Assembly (NCBI RefSeq): GCF_026385505.1
Contig: NZ_JANIDV010000004.1
Location: forward strand, 1 to 64,000
Reading direction: 5' to 3'
Length of the DNA: 64,000 bases
Source of the DNA: Bombella dulcis
GTDB taxonomy: Bacteria; Pseudomonadota; Alphaproteobacteria; Acetobacterales; Acetobacteraceae
Positions within the stretch are counted from its first letter, which is position 1. Every line of letters begins with the position of its first letter. The notes under the pieces were generated by a model. That model had not been told where the DNA came from and searched no databases. It worked only from the letters and a program-made list of their open reading frames with translations. This document shows, piece after piece, positions 41,844-59,877 of this stretch. Made by a program: the position numbers and the translations under genes.

Positions 41844-42709
41844 CGTTCCAGAGCCTTTGCCCGACAGACCTCATAACGGTCCTCATGACCATAGGCAGTG
41901 ATGCCCCGCATGTGACCCTTCTGCGTCATGACCGGGACACACCGACCTTTGAAGAAAGCCATCATTCTTTACAGAAACGCCTCTGCCATTGGGCCGAAAC
42001 GCTGACCCACTGTTCCATCGGCTATATGGAACAGCTCTATACTTTCAGTTCTTTTCCCGTGCAGGGGCAGACGCCACATATCCACATCACCTATCTGGCC
42101 CTCAGCCCTGACCATCCCCTGTCCTGCCACGGGTCGCTTTACCACCACTTCCCCTGGGAAGATCGCCGCAACGAAAGCGGTACCCGGCAACTGGCACAGT
42201 TCATCGCAGCCATAAAACACTGGGCTGCCGGACATGACGAACGCCAGAGCCGTATTGCCCCTGCCTTTGGACTGGATGATCTGCCGTGGGATGATACCCG
42301 TGTGCTGGAACGCTATGAGCTTTTGTGGGAATCCGGCCTCGTACCCCGTTCTGCGCCCTCCCCTGAAGCGACAGAAGAGGATGACCGCCGCCTTCTGGCC
42401 ACGGCTCTCTCTCGCCTGCGTGCCCGCATCCGCTACAGTCCGGCCGTATTCGATCTGCTTCCGAAGGCCTTTACTCTTCTACAGCTACAGCAGGCAATGG
42501 AAACACTGTCCGGCCGTTTCATGCACAAACCGAACTTCCGCCGCCTTGTACTGCATCAGCAGCTCGTGGAAGAAACCGGCACCTATGAACGGGCCGCTGC
42601 GGGACGCCCTGCCCGGCTCTACCGTTTTCGACCAGCGGCCATGGCCTCCTGCTATCTGGGTGCCGCCTTCCTGCCGCTGGAAACACCCTCATGGCTGATC
42701 ATGTATTAA
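41840..42709 (+). CDS. nadQ: NadQ/NrtR-type regulator of NAD biosynthesis
   Basis: 289 residues. The N-terminal half is Nudix-like but without a catalytic Nudix box; CSIGYMEQLYTF followed by ITYLALSPD matches the sugar/nucleotide-sensing half of NadQ (COG4111). The C-terminal half is a winged helix with the characteristic series LPKAFTLLQLQQAMETLSG, then KPNFRRLVLHQQLVEETG and GRPARLYRFRP, as in NrtR/NadQ. NadQ represses nadABC in alphaproteobacteria, and nadABC start 1.65 kb downstream with a palindrome over the promoter. The only thing between is an AT-rich island, so the pairing was probably once adjacent. Confidence 0.82.
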   Translation: MTFQSLCPTDLITVLMTIGSDAPHVTLLRHDRDTPTFEESHHSLQKRLCHWAETLTHCSIGYMEQLYTFSSFPVQGQTPHIHITYLALSPDHPLSCHGSLYHHFPWEDRRNESGTRQLAQFIAAIKHWAAGHDERQSRIAPAFGLDDLPWDDTRVLERYELLWESGLVPRSAPSPEATEEDDRRLLATALSRLRARIRYSPAVFDLLPKAFTLLQLQQAMETLSGRFMHKPNFRRLVLHQQLVEETGTYERAAAGRPARLYRFRPAAMASCYLGAAFLPLETPSWLIMY

Positions 42710-42963
42710 TTCTGCATGGACAGTCTAATATTATCACAAACTCTTGCAATAAGATGAATGCTCTTATACAAATGATCAAGATAAGTGGTGTTGACGATCA
42801 CAGTTGCCAAACGTAATGATGCCAGACCACAATAGGGCTATGTTCTTCCTCACCTATCATCACGGTACTAATAACATACCAGACAATATCGTATGCCGTG
42901 TGTGACAGTTATACCACCACGAAATGGGGCTAAAAAGCTCGGGTATTAGCAGAACGGATACAC
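42710..42963. other. AT-rich non-coding left part of the island
   Basis: Composition drops sharply in GC after the nadQ stop. No ORF, tRNA or terminal repeat was recognised. It could hold the promoter or an RNA partner of the former reverse transcriptase; that is speculation. Confidence 0.4.
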
Positions 42964-44198
42964 ATGGTGCCCGGGCCTTACTCACCACACAGTACCATTG
43001 ACAGTCATCGTGGTAATAAGAGATTTTCTTCAAAAATTACTTTATGTCCTGAGGTGAGGAAGTATAAACATTTCGACCTTCCTCTGCCGTCAAAGAAAAA
43101 TCGATTTTTTGATTTTTCTACTGAACAAAAGAAACAGGTCAAGAAGACACGCTCCATTCGCTTTGTCAGCCGTTCAGATGCACTTTATCTCCAAGCCTAT
43201 GCAGAATATCTAAATCTATACTATGAGAAATATTTAACAGAGTGCGCTCTAACCCACAGAAAGGAAATAGACAACAGCGCACACCATGCTAGGTCTTTTT
43301 TTTGTGAAATCAGTCAAAAGAAAAAATGTCCTTTTCTTGCCTTAGATACAAAAAATTTCTTTAATAAAGTTAACCATATTATTCTAAGGAACGCAATAAA
43401 AATCCTGACCAATAAAAGTACATTAAGTGGGCACCATTATACAGTATAGATAAACGCAACAAAATATTCCTATGTCGATAAAGGCGAATTTCTTAAAATA
43501 ACAGAATAATAACACAATAATAAAAATCGTAATATTGCAAAAACATATGAGATCTAATATAAAATATGCACAAAAGAAGAGTTTATCTCTTATGTGCGAG
43601 GGAAACATAATAAGATTATCAAGAATCATAAAGAAACTTTCAGGATACCTCAAAGAATACCCGTACAAAGATTATACGCCAACATCTCCCTGAAATCATT
43701 TGATCTTGGTGTATTAAGGTACTTCAAAGAGAAATAGCTCATACAGAAGATACTCTGATGATATCGTCCCAGTTTTCCCCACGTCCGTATCAAGGGAAGA
43801 TATTTTTCTTAAGATGAAAACACTTCTGAAAGACGTACATCTTTCCATATCAAAAACAGAAAAAAGCCACATTCCAGCACGGTAGAACTCAGGAAGACTC
43901 CTCGCACCCATTCATACAATATCTTGGATTTACATTTGATGGAGAAAAAATTCTGATCCGCGACTCCACACAGCGTACATGCAAAAATACGCAATAAAAA
44001 TAACCCGAGAAAGGAAATATTTAAACGTGAACCACTGAGCCATTATACACATCTCGGTAGAAGAAAAACTTCCTAAAATAGGCTTATAGAGCAGGTAAAA
44101 TAATAAGGTAACCTGAAATAAGAAAACAGTTCAGACACCATATGACATGGTTGAATCAGATATGGAGAAAAGAAATAAATAACGTATTCAAAACATGA
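42964..44198 (+). pseudogene. decayed reverse transcriptase (cellular/antiphage-type RT)
   Basis: The first open segment (42964-43449) reads RFVSRSDALYLQAYAEYL, then CPFLALDTKNFFNKVNHIIL, the RT motif with the first catalytic Asp. It ends at a TAG but the same frame continues with TKYSYVDKGEFLKITE up to 43506. Other frames then supply, in the right order, FRIPQRIPVQRLYANI (43639 on; ancestral FGIPQG.P), YRRYSDDIVPVF with the YSDD box at 43751-43762, QYLGFTFDGEKILIRDS (43917 on), AYMQKYAIKITRERKYL, SHYTHLGRRKT and a C-terminal IRKQFRHH...LNQIW ending at 44198. At least four frame changes and several stops separate them. AT-rich, unlike neighbours: acquired, then inactivated. Confidence 0.85.
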
Positions 44199-44361: not shown

Positions 44362-45351
44362 ATGATGCAGGGCATCGCCACCTCCCCGTCCCGCGCTGCA
44401 CTTTACAGCCCCGTGGCCTCCCTCATGGCCCGGCAGGACTGGGAACGGCTTTTTGCAGATGACATCGAGGCCATTCTCGAGCTGAAGCGCAAGCATAACG
44501 CTGTCATCCTCGCCCATAACTATCAGACACCGGAAATCTTCCACTGTGTGTCGGACATCCGGGGGGACAGTCTGGCTCTGGCCCGTGAAGCCCAGAATCT
44601 GGAGCAGGATGTCATCATCATGGCGGGCGTCCATTTCATGGCCGAAACGGTCAAGCTGCTGAACCCCACCAAAACCGTCCTCATCCCCGATGCTCTGGCA
44701 GGCTGCTCTCTGGCTGAAGGCATCACCGCAGAGAATGTCCGCACCCTGCGGGAACGTCACCCCGGCGTGCCGATCGTCACCTATGTGAACAGCTCCGCTG
44801 CCGTAAAGGCTGAAACGGATGTCTGCTGCACATCCGGCAATGCCCGCCGTGTCGTGGAAAGCCTTGGTGTGCCAGAGGTCATCATGATCCCCGATGAATT
44901 CCTCGCCCGGAACATCGAGCGGGAAACCGGCATCAAGATGCACACATGGTCTGCCCGCTGTGAGGTCCATGAGCGGTTTACCCCGCAGGAAATCCGTCAG
45001 TACCGGCGTATGCATGGTCCGCTGCATATCATTGCCCATCCGGAATGCTCGCCCGATGTCGTGGCAGAAGCCGACCATGCCGGGTCCACAGCCAGCATGA
45101 TGGACTATATCGCCCAGCATAAACCTGAAAAGGTCATGCTCATCACCGAATGTTCCATGAGCGACAACCTCGCCGCCATGCATCCACAGACCGACTTCAT
45201 CCGCCCCTGCAACCTCTGCCCGCACATGAAGCGCATCACCCTGAAGAACATCCGGCAGGCTCTGGAAACCATGAGTACCGAAGTCACCATCCCGGCTGAC
45301 CTTCAGGAACCGGCCCGCCGCTCTGTCGAGCGGATGCTGGCCATCAAGTGA
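44362..45351 (+). CDS. nadA: quinolinate synthase
   Basis: 329 residues from the ATG at 44362, which has AAGGA seven bases upstream; TTG 44344 and ATG 44347 are alternatives. The three [4Fe-4S] ligand cysteines are in VCCTSGNA, HPECSPDVV and PCNLCPHM, and LAHNYQTPEI is the substrate-binding start. It condenses iminoaspartate with DHAP to quinolinate. First gene of nadABC behind a palindrome-covered promoter. Confidence 0.96.
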   Translation: MMQGIATSPSRAALYSPVASLMARQDWERLFADDIEAILELKRKHNAVILAHNYQTPEIFHCVSDIRGDSLALAREAQNLEQDVIIMAGVHFMAETVKLLNPTKTVLIPDALAGCSLAEGITAENVRTLRERHPGVPIVTYVNSSAAVKAETDVCCTSGNARRVVESLGVPEVIMIPDEFLARNIERETGIKMHTWSARCEVHERFTPQEIRQYRRMHGPLHIIAHPECSPDVVAEADHAGSTASMMDYIAQHKPEKVMLITECSMSDNLAAMHPQTDFIRPCNLCPHMKRITLKNIRQALETMSTEVTIPADLQEPARRSVERMLAIK

Positions 45352-45362
45352 AGGATCGTCCC

Positions 45363-46826
45363 ATGCAGGGACACACCCTTTCCCGCTACGCAGGGTTGCC
45401 TGTCATCATCGGGGCTGGACTGGCCGGGCTGATGGCGGCTCTGGAGATGGACGGCCCCTGTGTGCTGCTTGCTCCTTCCTTTACGGGAGAAGGAACATCC
45501 AGCACCCTGGCCCAGGGCGGCATGGCCGCTGCCGTCGGCCCCGGTGACAGCCCGGCCAACCATGCCAAGGATACGCTCCAGGCTGGAGCCGGGTTGTGCG
45601 ATCCGGCCATCGTGCAGCGCATCACCGAGGCAGGACCCAGTGCCGTTGAAACCCTCCTGCGGCTCGGTGTTCCACTGGCCCGTGATGAAAACGGCCAGCT
45701 TGCCCTCCATCTGGAAGCTGCTCACAGTCATAACCGGATTGTCTTTGCCGGTGGCGACCGGAGCGGGCAGGTCATTCTTCAGCATATTCTCCAGCAGGCC
45801 CGCAGAAAGGCTAATATCCACTGGCTGCAGGCCACGCTGGAAGGCTTCCATGCGCCTGATGGTGTCTTGCAGGGCATATGGTCATCTGTCGGATTCATCC
45901 CCACACGGCACTGCATTCTGGCCAGTGGAGGCTGCGGCGGACTATATCAGCATACGACCAGCCCGCTCTCCAATCGGGGCGTGACGCTCGCTCTGGCCGC
46001 ATGGGCAGGAGCCACCGTGCGGGACATGGAGTTCACGCAGTTCCATCCCACGGCTCTCGTCACACCGGACCAGACGAACCGTCTTTCTCTCATCAGTGAA
46101 GCCGTGCGGGGAACCGGAGCCGTTCTGCGTCTGGACGATGGCCACCGCTTTACGGAAGAACTGGCCCCCCGTGATGTCGTCAGCCGGGCCATTGCCGCCC
46201 AGCTTCGGGAAGGGCGCACCGTCTTTCTGGATGGACGTTCCCTGCCGGATGCGCCTTTCAGCACACGCTTTCCCGGCATCACACAGGCCTGCCGGAAGGC
46301 CGGTTTCGATCCGGACACCCAGCTGCTGCCCGTTCAGCCCGCCATGCATTACCATATGGGTGGCCTGAAAGTGGACCAGACAGGACGCACGACCCTGAAG
46401 GGGCTATGGGCCTGCGGAGAAGTCGCCTGTACCGGCCTTCATGGGGCCAACAGGCTGGCCAGCAATTCCCTGCTGGAAGCCCTGGTCGGCGGGCAATGGG
46501 CAGGACAGGATGTCAACGCCCATCGCGATGCAGCCGGTCCTCTCAATACCACCGCACCGGAACGCCCCACCTTTACGACAGACTGGCCATTCCGGGCAGA
46601 GATGCAGCAGCATCTGGGCATTCTCCGTACCCGCACGGAGCTGGAAAACTTTCTGGAGCGCGCCCTGCCACAGGCCCGCCAGAATCTCTGCGCCCTGACG
46701 GCCTCCTTCATCGGCTGGGCCGCCCTGAACCGCCCGGAACAGAGGGGAGCACACTGGCGGGAAGACGCACCCGGCCTGCAGTCCCCCCGTCATCTTGACC
46801 TGCAGATGAACGATCTGCCCCTGTAA
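45363..46826 (+). CDS. nadB: L-aspartate oxidase
   Basis: 487 residues. FAD-binding VIIGAGLAGLMAALEM, then GTSSTLAQGGMAAA, FTQFHPTAL, EAVRGTGAVL and the flavin loop GEVACTGLHGANRLASNSLLEALV are intact. It oxidises aspartate to iminoaspartate for NadA. About 40-50 residues shorter than E. coli NadB (540), chiefly in the C-terminal helical region, which is within the range seen in alphaproteobacteria. ATG 45363 follows AAGGA; a GTG overlapping the nadA stop is the alternative. Confidence 0.95.
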   Translation: MQGHTLSRYAGLPVIIGAGLAGLMAALEMDGPCVLLAPSFTGEGTSSTLAQGGMAAAVGPGDSPANHAKDTLQAGAGLCDPAIVQRITEAGPSAVETLLRLGVPLARDENGQLALHLEAAHSHNRIVFAGGDRSGQVILQHILQQARRKANIHWLQATLEGFHAPDGVLQGIWSSVGFIPTRHCILASGGCGGLYQHTTSPLSNRGVTLALAAWAGATVRDMEFTQFHPTALVTPDQTNRLSLISEAVRGTGAVLRLDDGHRFTEELAPRDVVSRAIAAQLREGRTVFLDGRSLPDAPFSTRFPGITQACRKAGFDPDTQLLPVQPAMHYHMGGLKVDQTGRTTLKGLWACGEVACTGLHGANRLASNSLLEALVGGQWAGQDVNAHRDAAGPLNTTAPERPTFTTDWPFRAEMQQHLGILRTRTELENFLERALPQARQNLCALTASFIGWAALNRPEQRGAHWREDAPGLQSPRHLDLQMNDLPL

Positions 46827-46858
46827 CACCTGCCACACATCATCAGGATACCACCATC

Positions 46859-47728
46859 ATGGCCCTTGATACGCTTTTCCTGCCCGACCTGCTCTGGGAA
46901 CCGGTCATCACCAATGCCCTGCGGGAGGATTTCGGCACGGGCGGGGATGTCACCACACAGGCACTCATGCAGGGCAGACCCACACTGAAAGCCTCCTTCG
47001 TCGCCCGGCAGGAGGGACGGCTGGCCGGACTGCCCGGTGCCCGTCTGGCCTTCACCCTGCTGGATGGCAGCACACGCTTTACGGCCTTCAGGCAGGATGG
47101 TAACCGCATCACCCGTGGAGACATTCTGGCCGAAGTGGAAGGCCCTGCCAGTGCGGTTCTTGGTGGGGAACGTGTGGCCCTCAATCTTCTGTCCCATCTC
47201 AGCGGGATCGCCACCACAACGGGCCAGATCGTGGACTCCGTGGAAGGTGCGGGGGTGAGCATCTGCTGTACCCGCAAGACACTCCCCGGCCTGCGTGCCC
47301 TGCAGAAATATGCCGTCCGGGCCGGTGGTGGCAGCAATCACCGCCACCGGCTAGATGATGCCATCATGCTCAAGGACAATCATCTGGCCCTGTTTGGCAG
47401 CAACATCCCTGCCGCTCTGGCGGCTGCCCGCCAGCGGGCCGGGCACCTCATGAAAATCGAGCTGGAAGTGGACTCCCTCGCCCAGCTTGCCGAAGCCCTG
47501 CAATGCCCTGATGGGCCGGATGCCTACCTGCTGGACAACATGACACCCGCCATGCTGCGGGAAGCCGTGAACATGATTGAAGGCCGTGCCATTGCCGAAG
47601 CTTCCGGCGGCATCACGCCCGCCACCGCCCGCAGCATTGCGGAAAGCGGCGTGGACATCCTCTCTCTCGGCTGGCTGACTCACAGCGTGACGGCTCTGGA
47701 CATCGGACTGGACATCCGCACGGCCTGA
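46859..47728 (+). CDS. nadC: nicotinate-nucleotide pyrophosphorylase (quinolinate phosphoribosyltransferase)
   Basis: 289 residues. REDFGTGGDVTTQAL, NLLSHLSGIATTTG, CTRKTLPGLR and GGGSNHRHRLDDAIMLKDNH are the family landmarks including the substrate-binding Arg/Lys residues. It converts quinolinate and PRPP to nicotinate mononucleotide, completing the nadABC route. It follows nadB by 32 bp and is convergent with gloB. Confidence 0.96.
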   Translation: MALDTLFLPDLLWEPVITNALREDFGTGGDVTTQALMQGRPTLKASFVARQEGRLAGLPGARLAFTLLDGSTRFTAFRQDGNRITRGDILAEVEGPASAVLGGERVALNLLSHLSGIATTTGQIVDSVEGAGVSICCTRKTLPGLRALQKYAVRAGGGSNHRHRLDDAIMLKDNHLALFGSNIPAALAAARQRAGHLMKIELEVDSLAQLAEALQCPDGPDAYLLDNMTPAMLREAVNMIEGRAIAEASGGITPATARSIAESGVDILSLGWLTHSVTALDIGLDIRTA

Positions 47729-49282: not shown

Positions 49283-50149
49283 ATGCAGAAGCCATCCCCC
49301 GGCACGACCATCATGCACAGATACCGGCGCAGGCGACGCCGGGTCCACGGGCTTTCCTTCAACCGGCTTGTCCCTAACATCCTGACGATGCTTGGCCTCT
49401 GTGCCGGGCTGAGTGCCATCAAGTTCTCCATGACAGGTCACTTCACCCATGCGGCGGCGGCCCTGCTGCTGGCCGCCTGCATGGATGGGCTGGATGGCCG
49501 CATTGCCCGCCTGCTGAAGGGTACGTCCCGCTTCGGAGCTGAATTTGACAGCCTCTCAGACTTTGTCTGCTTCGGCGTGGTGCCACCGTTCATCCTCATG
49601 CTGTGGGCATTGCCCGCCACGCAGCGTCTGGCCTTCATTCCCTTCATTTTCTTCACCGTCTGCATGGCGTTGCGTCTGGCCCGCTTCAATTCCGCACTGG
49701 ATGACGACACGGCCCCGGAATATGCCGCCAACTTCTTCTCCGGCGTGCCCGCACCGGCGGGAGCGGGTCTGGCCCTCTTCCCGGTCTTTCTCGGGCTGGA
49801 AGCCAAGCGCAACCATTTGACGGGTCTGGAAAATTTCGCCCATTCCCCGTGGCTGGCAGCAGGCTGCCTGATCGTCACGGCCCTGCTTCTGGTCTCCACC
49901 CTGCCGATCTGGTCCTTCAAGAACTTCAAGGTACCGTCCCGGTATATCCTGCCCATGCTGGTCGGGACGGGAGCCTACACGGCCATTCTCATTGCGGAAC
50001 CGTGGGGTGCTCTGGCAGCAGCCGGGCTGCTCTACCTCATCATGATTCCGCTTTCCCGCCGCTCCTACTGGCGGCTGCGCCGTGAAGCCGAAGAGGCCTG
50101 GGAACCTGTTGAAGAAGACACGCCTTCCGCCAGCTCCACCAACGCCTGA
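49283..50149 (+). CDS. pssA: CDP-diacylglycerol--serine O-phosphatidyltransferase
   Basis: 288 residues, several membrane helices. The CDP-alcohol phosphotransferase motif DG(x2)AR(x8)G(x3)D(x3)D is read as MDGLDGRIARLLKGTSRFGAEFDSLSD in order across about residues 72-98. It makes phosphatidylserine for psd. Its last 85 bp overlap the 3' end of the Fe-S small-subunit gene on the other strand. Confidence 0.94.
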   Translation: MQKPSPGTTIMHRYRRRRRRVHGLSFNRLVPNILTMLGLCAGLSAIKFSMTGHFTHAAAALLLAACMDGLDGRIARLLKGTSRFGAEFDSLSDFVCFGVVPPFILMLWALPATQRLAFIPFIFFTVCMALRLARFNSALDDDTAPEYAANFFSGVPAPAGAGLALFPVFLGLEAKRNHLTGLENFAHSPWLAAGCLIVTALLLVSTLPIWSFKNFKVPSRYILPMLVGTGAYTAILIAEPWGALAAAGLLYLIMIPLSRRSYWRLRREAEEAWEPVEEDTPSASSTNA

Positions 50150-50583
50150 AGAATGGCTGAAGGCGATGGCGGGCATCCGGGGATGGAACTGTAGACCCGG
50201 GTAAGCGTGTGAATGCCGCCCAGCGTGGCATAGTTGTTCTTCCACAGCCCGCCATCATAAGCGCAGTTCCCCACGGCCACGAGGCTCCGTCCGGCGGGCA
50301 TGGCCTCCCACGCGCTGGCCAGCGCACTGGCACTGGACCGTGTCACGGACCCGGTGACCAGCAGCCAGTCCGCATCCTCCGGATGCTGGACCCGCTGGAA
50401 ACCGCTTCCCTCAAGCGGGTAGGCACTGCTGCCCAGGGAAACCAGCTCCATTGCACAGCCCTCACAGCTGCCTGCTTCCAGCGTGAAAAACCGGATGCGC
50501 GGACCATGCCGTCTCATGGGGCGGGGCCGCCATTTCTGCACATCCAGCAGAGCGAGCATCATGGTCAGGGGAGCAGGCTGCAT
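50065..50583 (-). CDS. Fe-S small subunit, HyfI/NuoB-like (Ehr-like complex)
   Basis: 172 residues. Cys40 and Cys43 (GSCEGCAMEL), Cys107 (GNCAYDGG) and Cys137 (IPGCPPSP) are placed like the four ligands of the proximal [4Fe-4S] cluster in NuoB/HyfI/HycG proteins. It is the natural partner of the large subunit at 54503 but lies apart from that operon, behind a TonB receptor gene and a broken kinase gene, and needs its own promoter. The Ser-rich tail overlaps pssA on the other strand. Electron-transfer role in a complex-I-like enzyme is inferred from family; no NADH-binding or ferredoxin subunit is seen here. Confidence 0.82.
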   Translation of the reverse strand: MQPAPLTMMLALLDVQKWRPRPMRRHGPRIRFFTLEAGSCEGCAMELVSLGSSAYPLEGSGFQRVQHPEDADWLLVTGSVTRSSASALASAWEAMPAGRSLVAVGNCAYDGGLWKNNYATLGGIHTLTRVYSSIPGCPPSPSAILQALVELAEGVSSSTGSQASSASRRSRQ

Positions 50584-50697
50584 GATGGGTGATCCTCACG
50601 GAAACAGGGACATGATAAAAGCCGTGACAGAATGTCCGGAAGCGGCACTATAGAACTCCGCCCCGTTCCCGCCCAGAGTGAAGTACTGTCTCACCTC

Positions 50698-51540
50698 ATG
50701 ATCTCACCATCCCCCTGCCTCCATACCAGGGCCCTGCTCATCGTCAATCCGACTGCGGGACATTATTCCGATCAGCGACTTGCAGAGTTCGTGCGGCATC
50801 TGGAAAAGGCAGGACTGGACGTGCAGGTCATGAAAACCCGTCATCGGGGACACGCCACACGGATCGTGCAGGATCATCTGACACGGACGGATCTCATCAT
50901 TGCCGGAGGCGGTGATGGAACGATTGCCGAGATCGCTCAGGCCATGATGGACAGCTCCTGTCCTCTTGCCCTCTGGCCTGTCGGATCCGCCAACGTGCTG
51001 GCACTGGAACTGGAAATTCCTTTCCATGATGCCCGTAACGCCGCCCTGATCGCCAGCGGGCAGTCCCGGACCCTCTGGGCCGGATGGATGGGTAGTGCAG
51101 CAGCTTTCCTCCGCCCTCAAGAAACGTGTCGGGCGGCTGGCCTATCTTCTCACTGCCCTACGTCTACCCGTTGCCCACCGTTTCCCTACTTTTGAAACCT
51201 GCGTAGATGGCAGGACCTGTCAGGCCCGTCTCACCATCATCTCCAAGGGACGGCTCTATGGCGGGCCTTTCAGGCTGTTCCCGCACAACCATCATGAAGA
51301 GCCGTTTTTTTCCATCCTCATGCTGCACCGGCTGAATCCTCTGGCCCTGCTCAGGCAGCTCCTAGCCTTCGCCAGCCATAAGCCATGCCCTGATCCTGCC
51401 GTCTCTTACATCAAAGGCCAGACCATTACCTGCTCTGGCAACAGGCCTGTACCCGTGCAGAGTGATGGCGATTTTCGTGGCACGACACCATGCCGCATCG
51501 CCAGCGCACCCACTCCTTTGCAGATCATCTGCCCGCCTAG
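50698..51540 (+). pseudogene. diacylglycerol kinase family gene, broken by deletion and frameshift
   Basis: The 5' part encodes ALLIVNPTAGHYSDQRLAEF, AGGGDGTIAEIAQAM and WPVGSANVLALEL, the ATP-binding half of DAGK_cat lipid kinases. Near 51095 the reading frame must shift to continue as SALKKRVGRLAYLLTALRL, ISKGRLYGGPFRLFP and PVPVQSDGDFRG. The segment that normally links the two (with the FVQM.G.GFDA-like stretch) is missing, so there is a deletion as well as a frame change. The ends meet the TonB receptor gene on the opposite strand. Now probably non-functional. Confidence 0.8.
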
Positions 51541-54407
51541 AAATCCGCCCCCATTTGAAGGAAGAAACTTCTTCCGGCGATATAGCCTGAATATTGGGAA
51601 AAGGCGGTATTGAAGGTCCCATCCGGCACGAATGGCGGGCGGCGGTTAAAAAGGTTGCTGATGCCCCCCATCAGCTGGAACTGATGCCACTTTCCCGTCA
51701 CCGTCACATCATGCAGGATCGTTCCGCCAACACGGGTCCGCCCGGATGTGGCCGGGTCAAGGTCCCGATGACCGTCATTCATCCTCATGCCACTGATGAT
51801 ACGGGTCATCCAGATCAGGCTGACATGGTCATGCCGCCATGTTGTGCTGATGTAATGCTGCTCCCGTGGCCGCCCGCTGCCATTCAGATAAAGCAGACGG
51901 CCCGTATAATCCTGCCAGTTGCCGTTGCGGGTCAGCTTCTGCCTGTAGCTCAGGAGATACTGAGTATTTTCGTAGAAACTCAGCTGGTCCCGATCACTCA
52001 GGGGCAGGCTATAACGCAGGCTGAAATCCAGACCATCCGTCTTCAGGGCACCGATATTCTGCGGCAGGGCCTCAATGGCCGTGATCTGCCCGCTACTGGA
52101 GCGGGACAGAATGGCACTACAGAAATCAGGCTCACTCCCTGTATAACACCCGTCCAGAAGCGTCTGGGTGCTGAGGGTCGAAATCATGTCCCGCAGGCTG
52201 TAATGCCAGTAATCCACGGAAAGCTGCAATGACCTGAGAGTTCGGGGCGTAATGTCCATTCCCACCGTTGCCGTACGCCCATATTCCGGCCCCAGCCGGG
52301 GATTGCCACCGGAGAGGGTCGGCAGCTGCCCCACCAGAGAAGACGTGAAACTGGCCGGGTTGATCCCCTCCTTCTGGCACCGTGCCCGCACCGCCCCCGC
52401 ATTGCTGCCATAGCTGCTGACATGAGCGCAGGGATCAGACGCGGACGCATAGCTCAGTGTCTGACCACCATAAACATCATACAGGCCCGGCTGCCGGAAC
52501 GACGTACCCAGCGTTCCCCGGAAGGCCACATCCTGAACCGGTGCCCAGTGCAGGCCGGTCTTCCAGTTCAGCGGGGTTCCGTAATGGCTGTACGAAGAAA
52601 CACGCCCCTGAAGATCAACCGTCAGGTCCCGTGCCAGCAGGGCACGCCGCAGCAGGGGAAGCTGGATTTCCCCATACCCTTCCGAGACGGTAAAGCCACC
52701 CCCTGTATAGGCCCCCGCCGCCCCTGTGGAGGCACCTTGCGCCACGAGGGCATCGGGATGATAGCTCAGCTGTTCACCCCTATGCTCCATCCCAACCGCC
52801 AGCCCGACCGGCCCGGCATGACGCCACGGCAGGGCGAAAAGATGCGGGTTCCGCAGGCGCAGCATCGTGTCCCGCAGCTGATAGGTCGCCCGGTCCTTCT
52901 GGGTGAAGCGGACATAACCCTTCGCCTGCTGACTGTAGGGCGCAAAGGGATTCTGCAGCACGCAGCCCTGCGCCGCCTGACAGATGCCCGGATCATAGGC
53001 CACGGCACTGCGAGGATTGCTTCCATCAAGCTGCCTCGTCCCAGTCGTTTCCAGCAGGTTACGGTAATTGATCATGTCCTGCGTATGGGAAGACAGATGG
53101 CTCCGCCCATAGGTATAGGAGGCATCATAATCCCAGCCAGCCCCCAGCTGCCCCTTCAGCCCCGGCAGGAAGGTCCATGTATCCGTGTTGATGTTATTCC
53201 GCCGTGGCCCGACATCCTCCGCCCTCTTGATGACGGAAGCATCTATGCCCCACGGATTATAGGGACTGGCAGCAGGCAGTATCCATGATGACGGCAAGGT
53301 GGAAGGCGGGACACTCCCCTGTATCGGGGCTGGCGACTGGGTACGGCTCACAAGCGTATGGCTGTAACGCATGGTGCCATAGAGTGTCACGAAACGGGAA
53401 AAGCGTTCATGCGCATCAAGAGAGACCGTCCCGTCATCATGACGGTTCATGATCGTGGAGTAACGGGCGAAATTATAGAGGTCTCCACTCGTGAAGCGGC
53501 GGAAGCCTCCCTGCCCATCCGGCACCATCTTCTGCCCCGTCTGCGGGTTTATGAGAACACCAGATGGAATGATGGATGAGCCGTAACTGGGGCTGCCCGT
53601 GGCCGGATTGTCATTCTGTGGCAGGGCTGCCCAGCTCCGGTCCCGGTTATAGATGGGGCCGGTCGTGCTGTAACTGCCCGCCAGCGTGACATTGCCCCGC
53701 CCGTCATCAAAATTCATGCCATGATAGGCGGAAATCTCCCCACCCCGGGCATCACCCACCTGCGTGATGGTCCCCCGCATGATGATGTTGCTTCCCGTCA
53801 GGTCATGCCGCAGATGGATGTTGATGACACCCGCCACGGCGTCCGCCCCATAGAGGCCGGACCCACCATCCTTGAGGATTTCCACCTTCTCGATCTGCTG
53901 CAACGGAATGGTGTTGAGGTCCACACATTCGGACCCTGCATTGAGCGGTGCCCGATGCCCGTCAATCAGCACAAGCACCCGCCCCTGCCCCAGATTTCGC
54001 AGGTCCGTGCAGGAGGCTCCCTTGCCGCCGTTGGTCATACTGTTGGGCGAGCCGGATGACCCGATGGAAGGCATCCGTTGCAGATAATCCCCCAGAGACG
54101 TCACGGCACTGCGCTGTATGTCCTTCCCCGTGATGGTCTGCACGGCATTGGGCGAATTCTTCCGCTCTCCCTGGAGAAAGGACCCCGTAACCGTCAGCTG
54201 CTCGACAGGTGGAGAACTGGCATGAACTGCCTGAAGGGATCGCCTGTCCACAGATGTTTTATGGGGTTTCCTGTCATGCGTGGCCAGAACTGCCTTCGCT
54301 GGCGTCTGCTGTGTCCCCGGTTCTGCCCGAAGCGGAGACACCGTCAGAGCCGGACAGATCAGCCCCCCACCCAGTATGAGGGCAATGCCCCGTCTGATTA
54401 GCCGCAC
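51537..54407 (-). CDS. TonB-dependent outer membrane receptor
   Basis: 956 residues from a GTG. Signal peptide (about 1-28), then a plug domain starting LTVTGSFLQGERKNSPNAVQT, with LRNLGQGRVLVLIDGHR and VEILKDGGSGLYGADAVAGVINI, then a 22-strand-type barrel with a C-terminal phenylalanine (FFLQMGADF), the outer-membrane sorting signal. Ligand unknown; the promoter carries a palindrome like a zinc-uptake regulator box, so zinc-chelate import is the best guess. It sits inside the dispersed Hyf-like gene set, same strand, but has its own promoter. Confidence 0.92.
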   Translation of the reverse strand: MRLIRRGIALILGGGLICPALTVSPLRAEPGTQQTPAKAVLATHDRKPHKTSVDRRSLQAVHASSPPVEQLTVTGSFLQGERKNSPNAVQTITGKDIQRSAVTSLGDYLQRMPSIGSSGSPNSMTNGGKGASCTDLRNLGQGRVLVLIDGHRAPLNAGSECVDLNTIPLQQIEKVEILKDGGSGLYGADAVAGVINIHLRHDLTGSNIIMRGTITQVGDARGGEISAYHGMNFDDGRGNVTLAGSYSTTGPIYNRDRSWAALPQNDNPATGSPSYGSSIIPSGVLINPQTGQKMVPDGQGGFRRFTSGDLYNFARYSTIMNRHDDGTVSLDAHERFSRFVTLYGTMRYSHTLVSRTQSPAPIQGSVPPSTLPSSWILPAASPYNPWGIDASVIKRAEDVGPRRNNINTDTWTFLPGLKGQLGAGWDYDASYTYGRSHLSSHTQDMINYRNLLETTGTRQLDGSNPRSAVAYDPGICQAAQGCVLQNPFAPYSQQAKGYVRFTQKDRATYQLRDTMLRLRNPHLFALPWRHAGPVGLAVGMEHRGEQLSYHPDALVAQGASTGAAGAYTGGGFTVSEGYGEIQLPLLRRALLARDLTVDLQGRVSSYSHYGTPLNWKTGLHWAPVQDVAFRGTLGTSFRQPGLYDVYGGQTLSYASASDPCAHVSSYGSNAGAVRARCQKEGINPASFTSSLVGQLPTLSGGNPRLGPEYGRTATVGMDITPRTLRSLQLSVDYWHYSLRDMISTLSTQTLLDGCYTGSEPDFCSAILSRSSSGQITAIEALPQNIGALKTDGLDFSLRYSLPLSDRDQLSFYENTQYLLSYRQKLTRNGNWQDYTGRLLYLNGSGRPREQHYISTTWRHDHVSLIWMTRIISGMRMNDGHRDLDPATSGRTRVGGTILHDVTVTGKWHQFQLMGGISNLFNRRPPFVPDGTFNTAFSQYSGYIAGRSFFLQMGADF

Positions 54408-54450
54408 AACCCCTCACACAGCGCATGACGAAGATTAAATTCTATTTTAG

Positions 54451-54467
54451 ATGTTATAATATAACAT
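54451..54467 (-). promoter_or_regulatory. perfect palindrome, Zur-box-like, upstream of the TonB receptor
   Basis: ATGTTATAATATAACAT has two perfect 8-bp arms around one central base, 43 bp before the receptor start. The core GTTATA-N-TATAAC is that of Zur operators known from enterobacteria. The surrounding 60 bp are AT-rich, typical of a regulated promoter. It overlaps a possible -10 TATAAT. Confidence 0.6.
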
Positions 54468-54502
54468 TCGGATGCAAGCCAGTCTTTTTGCGCAGCAGCC
54501 CG

Positions 54503-55939
54503 TTACAGGGCCACACCTGCCGGAGACACGCCCAGCGAGGCCAGAACCAGCCCAAGCTGTTCCGGCTCATGCCCTTCCAGCACGGCCCCCAGCACGGCCA
54601 GAAGCGGCAGCATCGGGTCCCGTATCTGTATGCGGGCCAGCCGCCCTTCTTCCAGCACGACATGGTACCAGACATCCCCCCGTGCCCCTTCGGCCACGCC
54701 CAGCCCTTCATCCGTGCGGGGCAGAGGCTGCCATTCATTTTCCTGCCCATAATCGGTCGTCATGCGGTCAAAAATCCGCAGGGATTCCTCAATCTCTGCC
54801 AGACGCTGCCGGTTGCGTGCCCATGCATCGCCCTCATGACGGCCCGCTCCCCCCATGGCCTGCGGGCGGACCCCTTCATCCATGTACCGCATGTCCAGAT
54901 ACCGCCCGCTGGCACGACCGGCTGCACCACCCAGCGCATAGTCCCATGCCATTTCCGTCGGTACAGGTGCCACGGCTTTCAGCCGTCCATCAAACAGACG
55001 GGTAAGCTGCCTGATCTGCTCCAGCCGGGGAGCCATCGCCTGACACACGGCCTGGGTAAATGGAATCATGGCCTCGACCCCACTCGGCTCCTCCAGCCTG
55101 ATGCTGTCCGTCAGGCGGCGTGACAGGCCATGCTCCATGCAGAGATCAGCAAAATACTCCCGTGCATGGTCACACAGGCTGGCCAGAAGACCCGCCCCGG
55201 CCTGATGGGCCGTCTGGGCCAGATCGAACAGGTGCAGCCCTATCCGCTCGGCCTCCAGCAGGAGCAGCCGCCTGTCCCGCTCCCGTGGGTCTATCCGGCG
55301 GCTCCCGGCCTGCTCCAGGGCACGGACGAACGCCAGCGGATGGGACACGAACCCGCTGGCGGAAATACGGGCCACCAGAGGCATGGCTTCCTGCGGGGTC
55401 AGCCCGATCAGACGGGACAGCACCCCCCGATGCCCGGCGGCAATCTGCACCTCGACCTGCTGCATCACGCCATCGGACAGCACATAATCAATGCCGAGCA
55501 GCCCCGGTACAGGCGTACGTGATGCTTCAATCCGGCAGCGTGGCAGCGGCTGTCCCCCACCATCCCCCACAGGCAGGGGCGTGGCCGACAGGGGAGCCGT
55601 GAGCGACCAGCTGCCATCATCCACGGCGGGGCTGTCATCCAGCGCAGACCACGCCTCCACACCCCAGAGGTCACGGGCGATGCGCTCCCCCCACTGTGCC
55701 GCCGGGAAATAGGGCGAAACCGCCTGATAATGCCCCTGCTCCACAGCCGTACTCAGCAGCAGGGGCTGTTCTCCTTCCAGCAGGAACAGGGCCGTGGCCC
55801 AGTCTCCATCTGCCCAGAAAGCCAGCAACGTCATCATCCGGGCATTCTGCTGCAGAAGACGCTGCCAGCCTTCCGCCGTCACACGGTAATGAAACAGCCC
55901 GACACGTTCCCCCTCGGAGAGGGCAGGTCCGTTCATCAT
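54503..55939 (-). CDS. NuoCD/HyfG-like large subunit lacking Ni ligands
   Basis: 478 residues. N-terminal part (about 1-110) resembles the NuoC-like domain of HyfG/HycE; the rest is NuoD-like with AAGHRGVLSRLIG at 168-180. Where hydrogenase large subunits carry CGIC the sequence has SASG (Ser193, Gly196), and the C-terminal DPCLSC is DPMLPL (Met443, Leu446): all four Ni-binding cysteines are gone. The protein therefore should not make or use H2 and belongs with hydrogenase-related complexes. ATGA overlap with the preceding gene. Confidence 0.82.
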   Translation of the reverse strand: MMNGPALSEGERVGLFHYRVTAEGWQRLLQQNARMMTLLAFWADGDWATALFLLEGEQPLLLSTAVEQGHYQAVSPYFPAAQWGERIARDLWGVEAWSALDDSPAVDDGSWSLTAPLSATPLPVGDGGGQPLPRCRIEASRTPVPGLLGIDYVLSDGVMQQVEVQIAAGHRGVLSRLIGLTPQEAMPLVARISASGFVSHPLAFVRALEQAGSRRIDPRERDRRLLLLEAERIGLHLFDLAQTAHQAGAGLLASLCDHAREYFADLCMEHGLSRRLTDSIRLEEPSGVEAMIPFTQAVCQAMAPRLEQIRQLTRLFDGRLKAVAPVPTEMAWDYALGGAAGRASGRYLDMRYMDEGVRPQAMGGAGRHEGDAWARNRQRLAEIEESLRIFDRMTTDYGQENEWQPLPRTDEGLGVAEGARGDVWYHVVLEEGRLARIQIRDPMLPLLAVLGAVLEGHEPEQLGLVLASLGVSPAGVAL

Positions 55940-57153
55940 GCCGCATGTCCTTTCAGTAGAGGCGACGCATAAACCAGCAGGATCACGGCCAGACAGGCCA
56001 GCAGACCGAGACAGAACAGGATGGACCGCATCACTCGTCCCCCCCGCTGCCAGACAACCAAAAGACTCTGCGGCAGGGTCTCAAGCCCGAGATGCCAGAA
56101 GCCCAGCACCATGCAGGCCAGCAGACTGACCAGCGCACCCCAGCCAAGCAGAGGGGCCAGAACGGCCAGCACCACCATGATGACCGGCAGGACCATCTGT
56201 ATGGGCAGCAGCGCAAGCCCGGCTGGCAGGGCCGTCTGCCCTACCGGCAGCAGCCCGTGACATCCCAGACGCAGGGCCGTCGCCAACAGGGCCGCCACAT
56301 AAAGCAGCAGCAGGCACGGCATCTGCCCTGTCCCTGCGGCCAGCAGCCCCAGCCCTGTCAGCCAGGGAAGCAGCGGCAGGGACCCTGCCCGCCTCAGGAG
56401 CAGACTGCCCAGGGCCAGCAGCCCGGCAATGACCATCAGAAGCTGCGTGAAGGGTGTTACCGCCAGCAGAGGCATGAGGAAGAGCGAAACAAACCGCAGC
56501 CCGACATCCAGAAGGGCCAGCTCGGCCCGACTGGACATGACGCTGCCCAGTCCCGCCATCATGCACAGCCCCATCAGGGCCAGGACCTGCCCGACCTGTA
56601 CCGCACTCTCAGTGCTGGCAAAAACGCCACCGCCCTGCATGACCGTAAGACCAAGCCCGGCCAGGATCACGCCACTCAGCCGCAGGCGCACCATGTCCCA
56701 GGCAGGCATGGCCCGCCGTGTTGCCCGTCCGTCCCACCAGGCCAGCAGCACGGTCCCCGCACCATCAAAGAACAGTACCGCCAGAGGGGGCCGCAGCAGG
56801 AGCCCCATGAAGATGCATCCCGTCACGAGGAAAGGCAGATAGGCTTCCATGCCTTCCCCGAAAGACGCCTTCTCCCGGAAAGAATCAGCCCCCCGCCAGA
56901 GGGCAAAAAGCAGGGCGGGCACGCAGGCTTCCATGCCCAGACAGAGTGCCTGCCCCCATGTCATGCCGGAAGAACAGCCCAGCAGGGCCAGAAGGCTCAG
57001 CCCCAGCCCCAGCCGGGCCATATGTCGGGCCTGGGCTGGCCGCCGTGACGCCCAGAGAACCCAGACCACCAGAAAAGGCCAGCAGAACAGCCCGAACAGC
57101 ACGGGAGACGCAAACAGACCAGACGCAAATGAAACCGCCGCCAGAGCCATCAT
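55936..57153 (-). CDS. antiporter-like membrane subunit, HyfF/NuoL-M-N type, divergent
   Basis: 405 residues, about 12 hydrophobic segments, rich in Leu and Gly. Position and length fit the HyfF-like proton-channel subunit (E. coli HyfF 526), but the usual lysine/glutamate motifs in the middle helices are hard to recognise. It overlaps the genes on both sides by ATGA. Probably translocates H+ or Na+, or is a structural remnant. Confidence 0.68.
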   Translation of the reverse strand: MMALAAVSFASGLFASPVLFGLFCWPFLVVWVLWASRRPAQARHMARLGLGLSLLALLGCSSGMTWGQALCLGMEACVPALLFALWRGADSFREKASFGEGMEAYLPFLVTGCIFMGLLLRPPLAVLFFDGAGTVLLAWWDGRATRRAMPAWDMVRLRLSGVILAGLGLTVMQGGGVFASTESAVQVGQVLALMGLCMMAGLGSVMSSRAELALLDVGLRFVSLFLMPLLAVTPFTQLLMVIAGLLALGSLLLRRAGSLPLLPWLTGLGLLAAGTGQMPCLLLLYVAALLATALRLGCHGLLPVGQTALPAGLALLPIQMVLPVIMVVLAVLAPLLGWGALVSLLACMVLGFWHLGLETLPQSLLVVWQRGGRVMRSILFCLGLLACLAVILLVYASPLLKGHAA

Positions 57154-57683
57154 TCATCACCCACATGCAGCCAGGCCAGTCTGGGCAGCAGCACCAGTGC
57201 CAGAAACACCATGACGGCCCAGAGAGCCGCTGCCGTCACGAACAGCCCCCAGGACGGCAGGATGGCCGCCATGACCATCAGCCCGTCCACGGCCATGATC
57301 AGCCCACAGAACTGGGCTAGAGCCACCCCGCAGGCTGCCGAACAGAGACCGGCCAGAACCAGCCCGATGCCGAACGTGGGCACCAGCCCCAGCCCTGACC
57401 CGAAGAAGGCCAGAACGAACTGAAGCAGCAGGGTCATCACCACAGGCATCAGCCCTCGCCCTCCTGCAAAGGATGCGCCCTGCCCGACCGCAAAATGCCG
57501 GACAATCCCCCAGAGCAGAAGATTGAACACGGGGAGCAGCAGGGCGCAGAACGCAGCCAGCACCCCCATCCCGGAGGTCCCTGCAATGGCTGCACAGAGT
57601 AGCCCGTAGAGCGGCAGCCAGCGGCCATCCCGCCCCAGCGTCAGCAGCACCAGCACGAGCGCACAGGCAAAACCGGTCATCAT
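57150..57683 (-). CDS. small membrane subunit, HyfE-like
   Basis: 177 residues, about six hydrophobic segments, a short MMTGFACALVLVLLTLGR start and no soluble domain. Size and place between the HyfC-like and HyfF-like genes fit the HyfE/NuoK-type subunit. ATGA overlaps on both sides. Sequence is too divergent for firm assignment. Confidence 0.6.
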   Translation of the reverse strand: MMTGFACALVLVLLTLGRDGRWLPLYGLLCAAIAGTSGMGVLAAFCALLLPVFNLLLWGIVRHFAVGQGASFAGGRGLMPVVMTLLLQFVLAFFGSGLGLVPTFGIGLVLAGLCSAACGVALAQFCGLIMAVDGLMVMAAILPSWGLFVTAAALWAVMVFLALVLLPRLAWLHVGDE

Positions 57684-58552
57684 ACGGCGAACCTCCCGGC
57701 AAGGGCCATCAACCCGGCCAGCCCGAGCAGAAGGGCCACGAAACGTCCATTCCGGCGCATCCCCGTCAGCCGCCCCAGGGATACCAGAAGACTTCCCCCC
57801 CCAAACCGGACCACAAGCCCGCTCACGCCTGCCGGTCCCTCCAGACCGAACAGGACAGGCAGCAGAAGATCACCCAGAAGCAAGGCCCAGCCAACCTGAT
57901 AGATCGCCACGATCACCTGCCGCTGATCCCGGGCCGTACGGCTGGCAGGCTGCCCACGGGCCACCATGTCCTCTGCCAGAGACTGGGGGTCCGGCAGGGC
58001 TGCCGTCAGGGCCAGTGCCACGGCACAGCAGAGGGACGTGCCCGCAAGGCTGGACCCCGGAGCCGCCAGCAGAAGGCGTTGCACCCCCTGCAACCCCGTG
58101 ACACCCGGAGCCGCCAGCACAAGAAAACATTCCGTCAGGCACAGGGCGGCACAGCACCGCCCACGCTCCGCCCAGAAACGCCCCGGCACCGCCCAGAAGG
58201 CCCCAGCCAGCAGAACCCCTCCCATCAGGAGCGGATCCGCCAGCCATGCCCCCATCACGGTTCCCACATCCGCCCTGACAATGGACAATCCCGCAAGGCA
58301 CAGCATCGCCAGAAAACCGAGAGCCAGCATCAGCCCGTCCTCCAGAGGCAGACCGTGGCGCAAAATCAGCCGCCAGAACGTCCCGAACCGCCTGTAGCGT
58401 TCTCTCAATGGAGCCACGGCCCGCCCGACCAGCAGGGCTGGCACGTCCTCCTCCAGCCAGAACATCACGGGGAGCAGAAGAAGGACAGCACCACACTGAA
58501 GGACAAGCTCCAGCACGACATGAAACACGGCAGCCAGAAATGATCCCGTCAT
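57680..58552 (-). CDS. membrane subunit, HyfC/NuoH-like, divergent
   Basis: 290 residues from an ATG overlapping the previous stop; a longer frame upstream overlaps the previous gene and is discarded. About eight hydrophobic segments; ALLVGRAVAPLRERYRRF in the first cytoplasmic loop resembles the quinone-site loop of HyfC-like proteins, and a second loop follows PDPQSLAEDM. Acidic residues typical of NuoH loops are reduced. It would link the arm to the membrane in the complex-I-type assembly. Confidence 0.66.
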   Translation of the reverse strand: MTGSFLAAVFHVVLELVLQCGAVLLLLPVMFWLEEDVPALLVGRAVAPLRERYRRFGTFWRLILRHGLPLEDGLMLALGFLAMLCLAGLSIVRADVGTVMGAWLADPLLMGGVLLAGAFWAVPGRFWAERGRCCAALCLTECFLVLAAPGVTGLQGVQRLLLAAPGSSLAGTSLCCAVALALTAALPDPQSLAEDMVARGQPASRTARDQRQVIVAIYQVGWALLLGDLLLPVLFGLEGPAGVSGLVVRFGGGSLLVSLGRLTGMRRNGRFVALLLGLAGLMALAGRFAV

Positions 58553-59877
58553 TGCGCCAGCCCCATCACGACCAGAACACATCCCAGAAAGACTAGCCAG
58601 AACACGGCACCGAGTTCCTGCGCGGGCAGAAGTGACAGAAGTTCCGTAGCGGAAAGCCGCACGCTCCGGGCCTGCCTCTTCCCCCGCATCAGCAGCCGTT
58701 TCAGGCTGTGAGGGCAGACCGGTGCCGCCTGCATGTAAGACTGAAGCCCCGCCAGCCCGGTCTCTCCTTCTTCTTCCAGAAACAGGCCGCCCTCGGAGCT
58801 GCCACGCCTGCGCCGGGACAGGCACAGCCAGACAGGCAGCATCACGCCCCAGAACAGAGGCAGGGCCATCATGCTGCCATCACCACCGGGCAGGCGATAG
58901 AGCCAGCTGGCCCAGCCCGCCCCATACCCTGTCAGCCAGTCCGCCGCCATGCCGCAGGCGGGAGGCAGGATCACGGCCAGGCACAGGCCCCAGGCCCAGT
59001 GCCTCCGCAGGCCATCCCGCAGGGCCGGAGCCGCCTGACTGAGCACCAGAACGCCATCCCCCAGTGAAAGCCCCATGATCGCCACACCAAGCAGGCAGCC
59101 CATGACAGTCCATCCCTCCGTGCTGCTGCTCAGGCCAAGCGAAGCATGAAGCCCGACCCAGCCCACGACGAATCCCGGCAGGGGCGGTGCCGGAAGCATC
59201 AGCAGGGACGCCCGGGGCCAGACCACGGCAAGGCACTGGCCGGCAAGGTCCAGAAGCAGGGCGAAGAAAGCCCCCTCCACACCCAGCTCCATCCCCTGCT
59301 GACGGGAAACCTCCATGACACCCAGCAACAGCACGGGCCGAACGAGGCGGCAGTAGCGATACAGAAAAAGCCGGTCCGCCCACATGCCAGCCATCAGGCA
59401 CAACCCGACCAGTCCGGCCACCCCCAGCATCCAGTCAAGGGGATGACGGGCTGCCATCTCATGGCCCAGCCCGAGCATCAGGATGAGGGCAACGGACCGT
59501 GCCGCTTCACGTTCCCCCACCGCCCTGCCTGCGGCCCAGAAACAGACTGCCATCACACCGAGACCACCGGCTTCCGCCGGGAAAAGACCATACCCGACCA
59601 GAGCGGGCACACCCCAGACAGGCTGGAAGACCCGTCCGCCCCCCAGCAGAACAAGCGACACGGCCATCAGACAGGCCGCTGCCCCGGCATGTGGGACGAC
59701 CGCCAGGGTCAGCAGGGCCAGAACCATGCCCGCCATGTGGCAGCCCCCCTGCCGCCAGACATCCAGCGGAACGGAACGCCACAGACCACTGACGAACACG
59801 CGGACAGACCGCTCACCACAGAGCAGCACGGCCAGCAACACCATCAGGCAGGCCATGAAAGGATCATGGAATGACAT
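58549..59877 (-). CDS. antiporter-like membrane subunit, HyfB/NuoN-like
   Basis: 442 residues, roughly 11 hydrophobic segments, with a soluble loop near the end (about 350-420). PAPPLPGFVVGWVGLHA corresponds to the PTPGF.SK-like stretch of NuoM/NuoN/HyfB proteins, though the lysine is missing. First gene of the five-gene operon, starting 8 bp after holC, so it is likely read from the pepA-holC message. Each following gene overlaps by ATGA, implying stoichiometric, coupled synthesis. Confidence 0.7.
   Translation of the reverse strand: MSFHDPFMACLMVLLAVLLCGERSVRVFVSGLWRSVPLDVWRQGGCHMAGMVLALLTLAVVPHAGAAACLMAVSLVLLGGGRVFQPVWGVPALVGYGLFPAEAGGLGVMAVCFWAAGRAVGEREAARSVALILMLGLGHEMAARHPLDWMLGVAGLVGLCLMAGMWADRLFLYRYCRLVRPVLLLGVMEVSRQQGMELGVEGAFFALLLDLAGQCLAVVWPRASLLMLPAPPLPGFVVGWVGLHASLGLSSSTEGWTVMGCLLGVAIMGLSLGDGVLVLSQAAPALRDGLRRHWAWGLCLAVILPPACGMAADWLTGYGAGWASWLYRLPGGDGSMMALPLFWGVMLPVWLCLSRRRRGSSEGGLFLEEEGETGLAGLQSYMQAAPVCPHSLKRLLMRGKRQARSVRLSATELLSLLPAQELGAVFWLVFLGCVLVVMGLAQ

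Follow-up and report, generated by a model that had tools for sequence, protein, structure and literature searches.

The relatives of respiratory complex I are a model for coupling redox chemistry to ion pumping. Energy-converting hydrogenase-related (Ehr) complexes that lack NiFe ligands appear in excerpts of PMC6349859 and PMC10284858, and in the former excerpt their charge translocation is presumed from the Mrp-antiporter-like subunits; the founding description of such links is reportedly that of Marreiros et al. 2013. A stretch of 64,000 nucleotides from Bombella dulcis, a bee-associated acetic acid bacterium of the family Acetobacteraceae (contig NZ_JANIDV010000004.1, positions 1 to 64,000, assembly GCF_026385505.1; termed the window), carries six minus-strand genes, B, C, E, F, G and I, for a predicted membrane complex related to these systems. 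Among the papers listed by literature searches that covered mainly open-access work, none deals with Ehr complexes in acetic acid bacteria or with a form whose ion path has been lost.

The likeness to Ehr lies in the combination of group-4-like large and small subunits lacking NiFe ligands with HyfB/C/E/F-type membrane subunits, and in the nesting of the Bombella-type large subunit inside the Ehr-type loci of Acetobacteraceae, whereas the antiporter-like subunits are shorter here and their canonical Lys/Glu/His are gone. Compared with Escherichia coli hydrogenase-4/formate hydrogenlyase-2 (Hyf) and formate hydrogenlyase-1 (FHL-1), as portrayed in parts of PMC9474812 and PMC7384014, the subunits B, C, E, F, G and I correspond in order to HyfB, HyfC, HyfE, HyfF, HyfG and HyfI; unlike Hyf, the operon has no HyfA, HyfD, HyfH or HyfJ, the nickel ligands and the C-terminal tail are missing and the genome has no HypD. 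The NuoCD-like G and NuoB-like I recall respiratory complex I (Nuo), but no NuoI/NuoG-type protein is found in the genome, the quinone-ligand positions are not conserved and the small subunit has CxxC in place of CC. The available part of PMC10715153 describes a deranged bc1 complex and a COX1-like protein of Acetobacteraceae that are without metal ligands yet retained, and proposes a structural role for them. These are likewise respiratory-type proteins of the same family kept after losing metal ligands, but they belong to other complexes, and that part of the paper makes no mention of Ehr or of a HyfG-like protein and names hydrogenase once, as type 1.

The large subunit G (54503-55939; 478 amino acids) is HyfG/NuoCD-like, matching PF00346 (E 5e-13), PF00329 (E 0.007) and also the NuoD models, with the large subunit of the membrane-bound hydrogenase (MBH; 6cfw_L, E 3e-12) as its closest solved relative. 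It is 87% identical to its counterpart in Bombella pluederhausensis and, among the matches listed, 67-87% identical to those in nine other Bombella-group records. The first nickel-ligand site is replaced by Ser193 and Gly196 (55352-55363, minus strand) opposite HyfG Cys243/Cys246, and the second by Ser472 and Gly475 (54515-54526, minus strand) opposite HyfG Cys517/Cys520 at the extreme C terminus, with G ending three residues past this site compared with 35 residues past the last Cys in HyfG. An earlier, preliminary description of the window, made from the nucleotide letters, had both nickel CxxC motifs replaced, and it was right about Ser193/Gly196 and about the absence of a nickel site overall; the second CxxC of hydrogenases sits in the C-terminal block, however, and its Met443/Leu446 is therefore misplaced as the second site.

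The comparison covers 70 related loci, 10 from Bombella records and 60 from stretches of DNA of other members of the Acetobacteraceae, of which 69 are distinct (L056 is identical to L073). Relatives with intact CxxC pairs were looked for and a Cys pair is present at either nickel site in none of the 70, so the loss is shared and not a sequencing error, and the nickel-less character claimed at the outset stands. No Cys occupies the second-site positions in any of 71 aligned rows, a single Cys occurs at the second position of the first site in one row (L079), and L087 has a CxxC within the last 40 residues of G that is out of register. The loci divide into derived ones and a canonical group of 18 near E. 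coli HyfB, extended to 21 after the residues had been inspected so that residue retention in this group is partly a matter of definition, with L068, L071, L087 and L090 set apart as partial loci. On the loop preceding the first nickel site, Glu at HyfG E195, which probably corresponds to the proton-donating HycE Glu193 described in an excerpt of PMC9474812, is present in 21/21 canonical but only 6/48 derived rows. Ahead of the second site, the canopy-type Asp (HyfG D515) is replaced by Asn in all 21 canonical rows, and it is absent from all 48 derived rows, which mostly have Gly. The nickel maturation protein HypD has no representative in the window genome and is present in five of 30 genomes searched. 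With both CxxC nickel pairs absent, the predicted complex would not be a hydrogenase.

The four membrane subunits precede G in the order B (58549-59877; 442 amino acids), C (57680-58552, start at 58552; 290 amino acids), E (57150-57683; 177 amino acids) and F (55936-57153; 405 amino acids). The arrangement of five genes over 54503-59877 joined by four ATGA overlaps, given in the preliminary description, is reproduced on re-reading the frames and the junctions B/C, C/E, E/F and F/G, and all six reading frames are open. None of B, C, E and F from the window has a Pfam or NCBIfam match at E≤1, and direct family searches with the membrane subunits of L048, L059 and L053 return chance matches only; F of L057 has a sub-threshold PF00361 match. 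Because the direct searches were empty, a stepwise profile approach was used for these subunits. Profiles grown from E. coli HyfC and HyfE arrive at the Bombella C and E proteins, and these searches carry the assignment since the C and E profile sets mostly coincide with those of their counterparts and their profile-profile scores are not independent. Starting from HyfB the profile extends to 43 loci and starting from HyfF to 31, with Bombella not among them in either case. Profile-profile alignment with hhalign pairs B with HyfB at E 8e-9, with no locus common to both profiles, and F with HyfF at E 2e-18, with three loci in common (3e-6 and 2e-17, respectively, under another column rule); among the controls, the top non-cognate pair is F with HyfB (4e-4), which is itself homologous, and the top reversed profile scores 7e-3. 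Away from its middle part the alignment of B is weak, and single positions are less sure in B than in F, E and C.

Structure models of B and F, built from 11 Bombella sequences, have low mean predicted local distance difference test (pLDDT) values of 48.0 and 48.7, and fold searches with these low-confidence models give no match at E≤0.001. The best fold rows for the F model are complex I L/ND5 and NdhF chains at E≥0.3, with MrpA and NuoN weak, and the rows for B are mixed. The four predicted membrane proteins are divergent relatives of HyfB, HyfC, HyfE and HyfF, with B and F as putative antiporter-like subunits and C as a HyfC/NuoH-like membrane anchor. The first impression of Hyf-like and very divergent membrane subunits is thus confirmed by the profile tests, which assign none of them to an unrelated family.

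The residues of the canonical ion path are nearly all lost from the derived loci. In HyfB, E142, K221 and K252 are each present in 18/19 canonical compared with 0/44 derived loci, H348 in 19/19 compared with 1/44 and K352 in 18/19 compared with 1/44; these residue counts drop the B proteins of L068, L071, L084, L087 and L088 because of a truncated contig or a matched reading frame that resembles F. The pattern is repeated in HyfF, with E143 and K232 each retained in 21/21 canonical and 0/41 derived loci and K351 and E406 each in 20/21 and 0/41, and in HyfE, with E159 in 19/21 and 0/40 and E178 in 21/21 and 2/40. For HyfC, E282 is found in 20/20 canonical and 0/46 derived loci and E146 in 20/20 and 4/46. 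Still present in derived loci are HyfB R29 (42/44) and HyfF R271 (18/41). HyfC E146 is probably equivalent to HycD E138, a change of which, or of E199/E201/E203 jointly, lowers H2 production by 98-99% according to the part of PMC9474812 available here. An alignment-free search for the Lys motif of transmembrane helix 7 (TM7) finds it in 17/21 canonical and 0/45 derived loci, although the pattern misses E. coli HyfB, HyfD and HyfF and is too narrow to be more than support for the alignment counts. A hydropathy count of charges in transmembrane cores does not separate the groups (B of the window has four Asp/Glu), whereas the Lys pattern does. B is also short, with 442 residues compared with 672 in E. 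coli HyfB, and F is shortened too. The derived complex probably does not pump ions by the known route, and the description of the enzyme as ion-pumping is unsupported because the canonical Lys/Glu/His of HyfB, HyfF and HyfE and most of the tested E-channel residues of HyfC are gone in the clade.

The initial identification of an Ehr-type complex that has Hyf-like membrane subunits but lacks nickel ligands is upheld, and many Acetobacteraceae share it. A homologue of G (E≤1e-10; hits not each inspected) is present in 168 of 200 Acetobacteraceae genomes, with 32 lacking a match. Maximum-likelihood analysis of 63 large subunits places the stripped form in a single clade of 39 rows (support 100/99) nested among canonical Ehr-type rows, with the partly stripped L071 and L087 as its deepest (stem) rows; the tree is built from G alone with nine near-duplicate rows left out, and its outgroup is E. 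coli HyfG only, on a long branch. Both forms occur together in several genomes, among them G062 (L082 and L083) and G099 (L084 and L081); the small subunit of L083 was not located. Locus L090 (genome G127) is an independent stripped Ehr-like locus outside the main clade. A search with a 16-row alignment finds the short-B form in 22 of the 200 Acetobacteraceae genomes, in 12 genera, and in one of 385 genomes drawn from the class, which is the window's own. The gene set and order B-C-E-F-G-I are those of canonical loci, with I displaced in Bombella. Among 34 loci compared, at least 27 have pepA- and holC-type genes upstream and at least 22 a psd/pssA-type neighborhood downstream; this shared chromosomal place indicates vertical descent and says nothing on function, and no functional partner emerged among the gene neighbors of the compared loci. 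In the predicted complex Bombella has its own version of a six-subunit assembly that is spread across the Acetobacteraceae and descends from Ehr complexes.

The reading that we favor, with confidence evenly divided for and against it, is that of a catalytically silenced, membrane-anchored one-cluster module whose contribution is either structural or that of a redox-responsive partner to a second membrane system, with no H2 chemistry and no pumping by a known route. The six proteins would still assemble into a hydrogenase-like membrane complex, the assembled complex would neither handle H2 nor pump ions by the known route, and its role would be exerted by its structure or as the redox-responsive partner of another inner-membrane system. 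A structural role may have a parallel in the ligand-less bc1 complex of the same family (PMC10715153, in the part available). As to how this state arose, we tentatively suggest a conserved pseudo-enzyme complex in which the nickel site was lost first and the proton-donating and ion-path residues next, as well as most of the Fe-S ligands in at least one lineage (L057/L099), and which selection has maintained for a structural or regulatory task at the inner membrane of acetic acid bacteria. In such a history evolution would have removed supposedly essential parts stepwise with assembly kept, and the one family, which holds canonical, intermediate (L071) and stripped forms, offers a natural series on the function of the scaffold without pumping. 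It also speaks against labels such as proton-translocating hydrogenase-4 or NADH dehydrogenase for operons of this kind.

Several observations weigh against the silenced module. The B-HyfB alignment is local and weak with single B positions unsure, and the structure models of B and F are poor. The Fe-S ligands are kept in all derived small subunits examined other than the exceptions given below, which points to redox use. HyfC D104 is kept in 39/46 derived loci and the K270 position of HyfC is Lys or Arg in 41/46. Near relatives also conserve other buried charges, namely D107, D229, R250 and R288 in C, R147, R156, R158, D216 and R220 in F, H244 and D333 in B and R168 in E, so that a rewired ion path is possible. 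Among the roles, a structural or redox-responsive one is the most likely, followed by uncoupled one-cluster electron transfer and then by a rewired ion transporter.

Uncoupled electron transfer, which we consider somewhat unlikely, would have I and G pass electrons via one [4Fe-4S] cluster between a soluble carrier and an acceptor such as quinone, the membrane arm serving only as an anchor. The small subunit I (50065-50583, minus strand; 172 amino acids) is HyfI/NuoB-like (PF01058, E 1e-23), and the four plausible cluster cysteines first noticed in it, Cys40, Cys43, Cys107 and Cys137, are in register with the HyfI cysteines; I is a predicted one-cluster Fe-S protein. The window retains all four, as do the derived small subunits other than those from L057, L099 and genome G001, and many structural residues of G are invariant. 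The window genome has no Nuo complex I (no matches to PF00361, TIGR01971 or PF00384) and an extra electron entry would be useful to it; beyond G and I it has no second PF00346 or PF01058 protein, leaving the complex as the sole complex-I-superfamily system found there. On the other hand, no NuoI, NuoG-type, formate dehydrogenase-type or molybdopterin oxidoreductase protein was found in the genome, where a co-occurring NuoI-type gene had been looked for; the known electron-input modules, and with HypD the nickel maturation enzyme, are therefore missing. The positions aligned with Thermus Nqo4 His38 and Tyr87, which we take to be quinone ligands, are Pro145 and Ala194 in G of the window; none of the 71 rows, canonical loci included, has Tyr at the second of these positions. 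Two lineages, moreover, have lost cluster ligands and kept the genes, with three of the four cluster cysteines of I replaced in L057 and L099 (one genus), where the genes are open, and one of the four replaced in the G001 copy of I (L128).

Improbable in our view is a complex that pumps or transports ions along a rewired path, with new charges of C, F, B and E standing in for those of the canonical form. It draws on the buried charges conserved in near relatives and on the purifying selection acting on the membrane subunits, but the canonical Lys/Glu/His are left in 0/40 to 1/44 derived loci at most sites, B and F are shortened, and the conserved charges lie partly in loops and differ in more distant derived loci.

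The purifying selection extends to all six genes, so the complex probably serves some purpose other than the energy conversion typical of such machinery. The six frames are open in 10/10 other Bombella loci, and the ratios of nonsynonymous to synonymous substitution rates (dN/dS) are 0.05-0.21 compared with 0.03-0.28 for five neighbor genes, where figures are reported for six of nine relatives and the value of C against L041 is unusable. The values of B, C and F (0.12-0.21) are above those of pssA/psd (0.03-0.12) and within the range of holC (0.11-0.28). Other derived pairs give 0.04-0.37; in L057/L099 the ratios are 0.37 for I and 0.36 for C at low divergence, indicating weaker constraint there. 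Where I is away from G, as in genomes G022, G149, G037, G008, G046, G001, G085 and G126, it is found elsewhere in the same genome. Six of eight displaced I genes (L139, L140, L142, L143, L145 and L146) lie upstream of what we take, from names assigned by eye, to be nadA-nadB-nadC, and the window has presumed nadB- and nadC-like genes, likewise named by eye, near I at 45348-47728. A decaying remnant heading for loss, the degeneration that the preliminary description had allowed for, is very doubtful. The short and very divergent membrane subunits, the 32 of 200 family genomes with no G match and the reduced genome of 1.87 Mb (27 contigs) would fit it, but the open frames, the low dN/dS and the retention of I after it moved out of the operon make decay unlikely, and the complex is kept in genomes that have lost complex I. 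Hardly credible is a working Ehr with the ion-pumping mechanism of canonical Ehr, as first proposed, which has the shared gene set and order and common descent in its favor but has lost residues still found in the canonical Ehr loci of Acetobacteraceae.

The separation of I from the operon was correctly recognized from the start. Two genes lie between G and I in the window, a TonB-dependent receptor gene (51537-54407, minus strand; PF00593, PF07715) that is outside the complex and a lipid-kinase-like gene, and in sister genera I is directly 3' of G. The latter gene is diacylglycerol-kinase-like (50632-51613, plus strand) and has a frame change that splits PF00781 from YegS_C (PF19279); its homologue is in a single frame in 10/10 other Bombella loci. 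The six complex proteins contain 0-1.2% lysine compared with 1.2-3.6% in nine neighbor proteins, with one Lys in the 478 residues of G, and the canonical and derived relatives of the six are on average Lys-poor too. At 42001-44000 of the window the G+C content is 0.444 compared with approximately 0.6 around it, perhaps as a result of a recent insertion.

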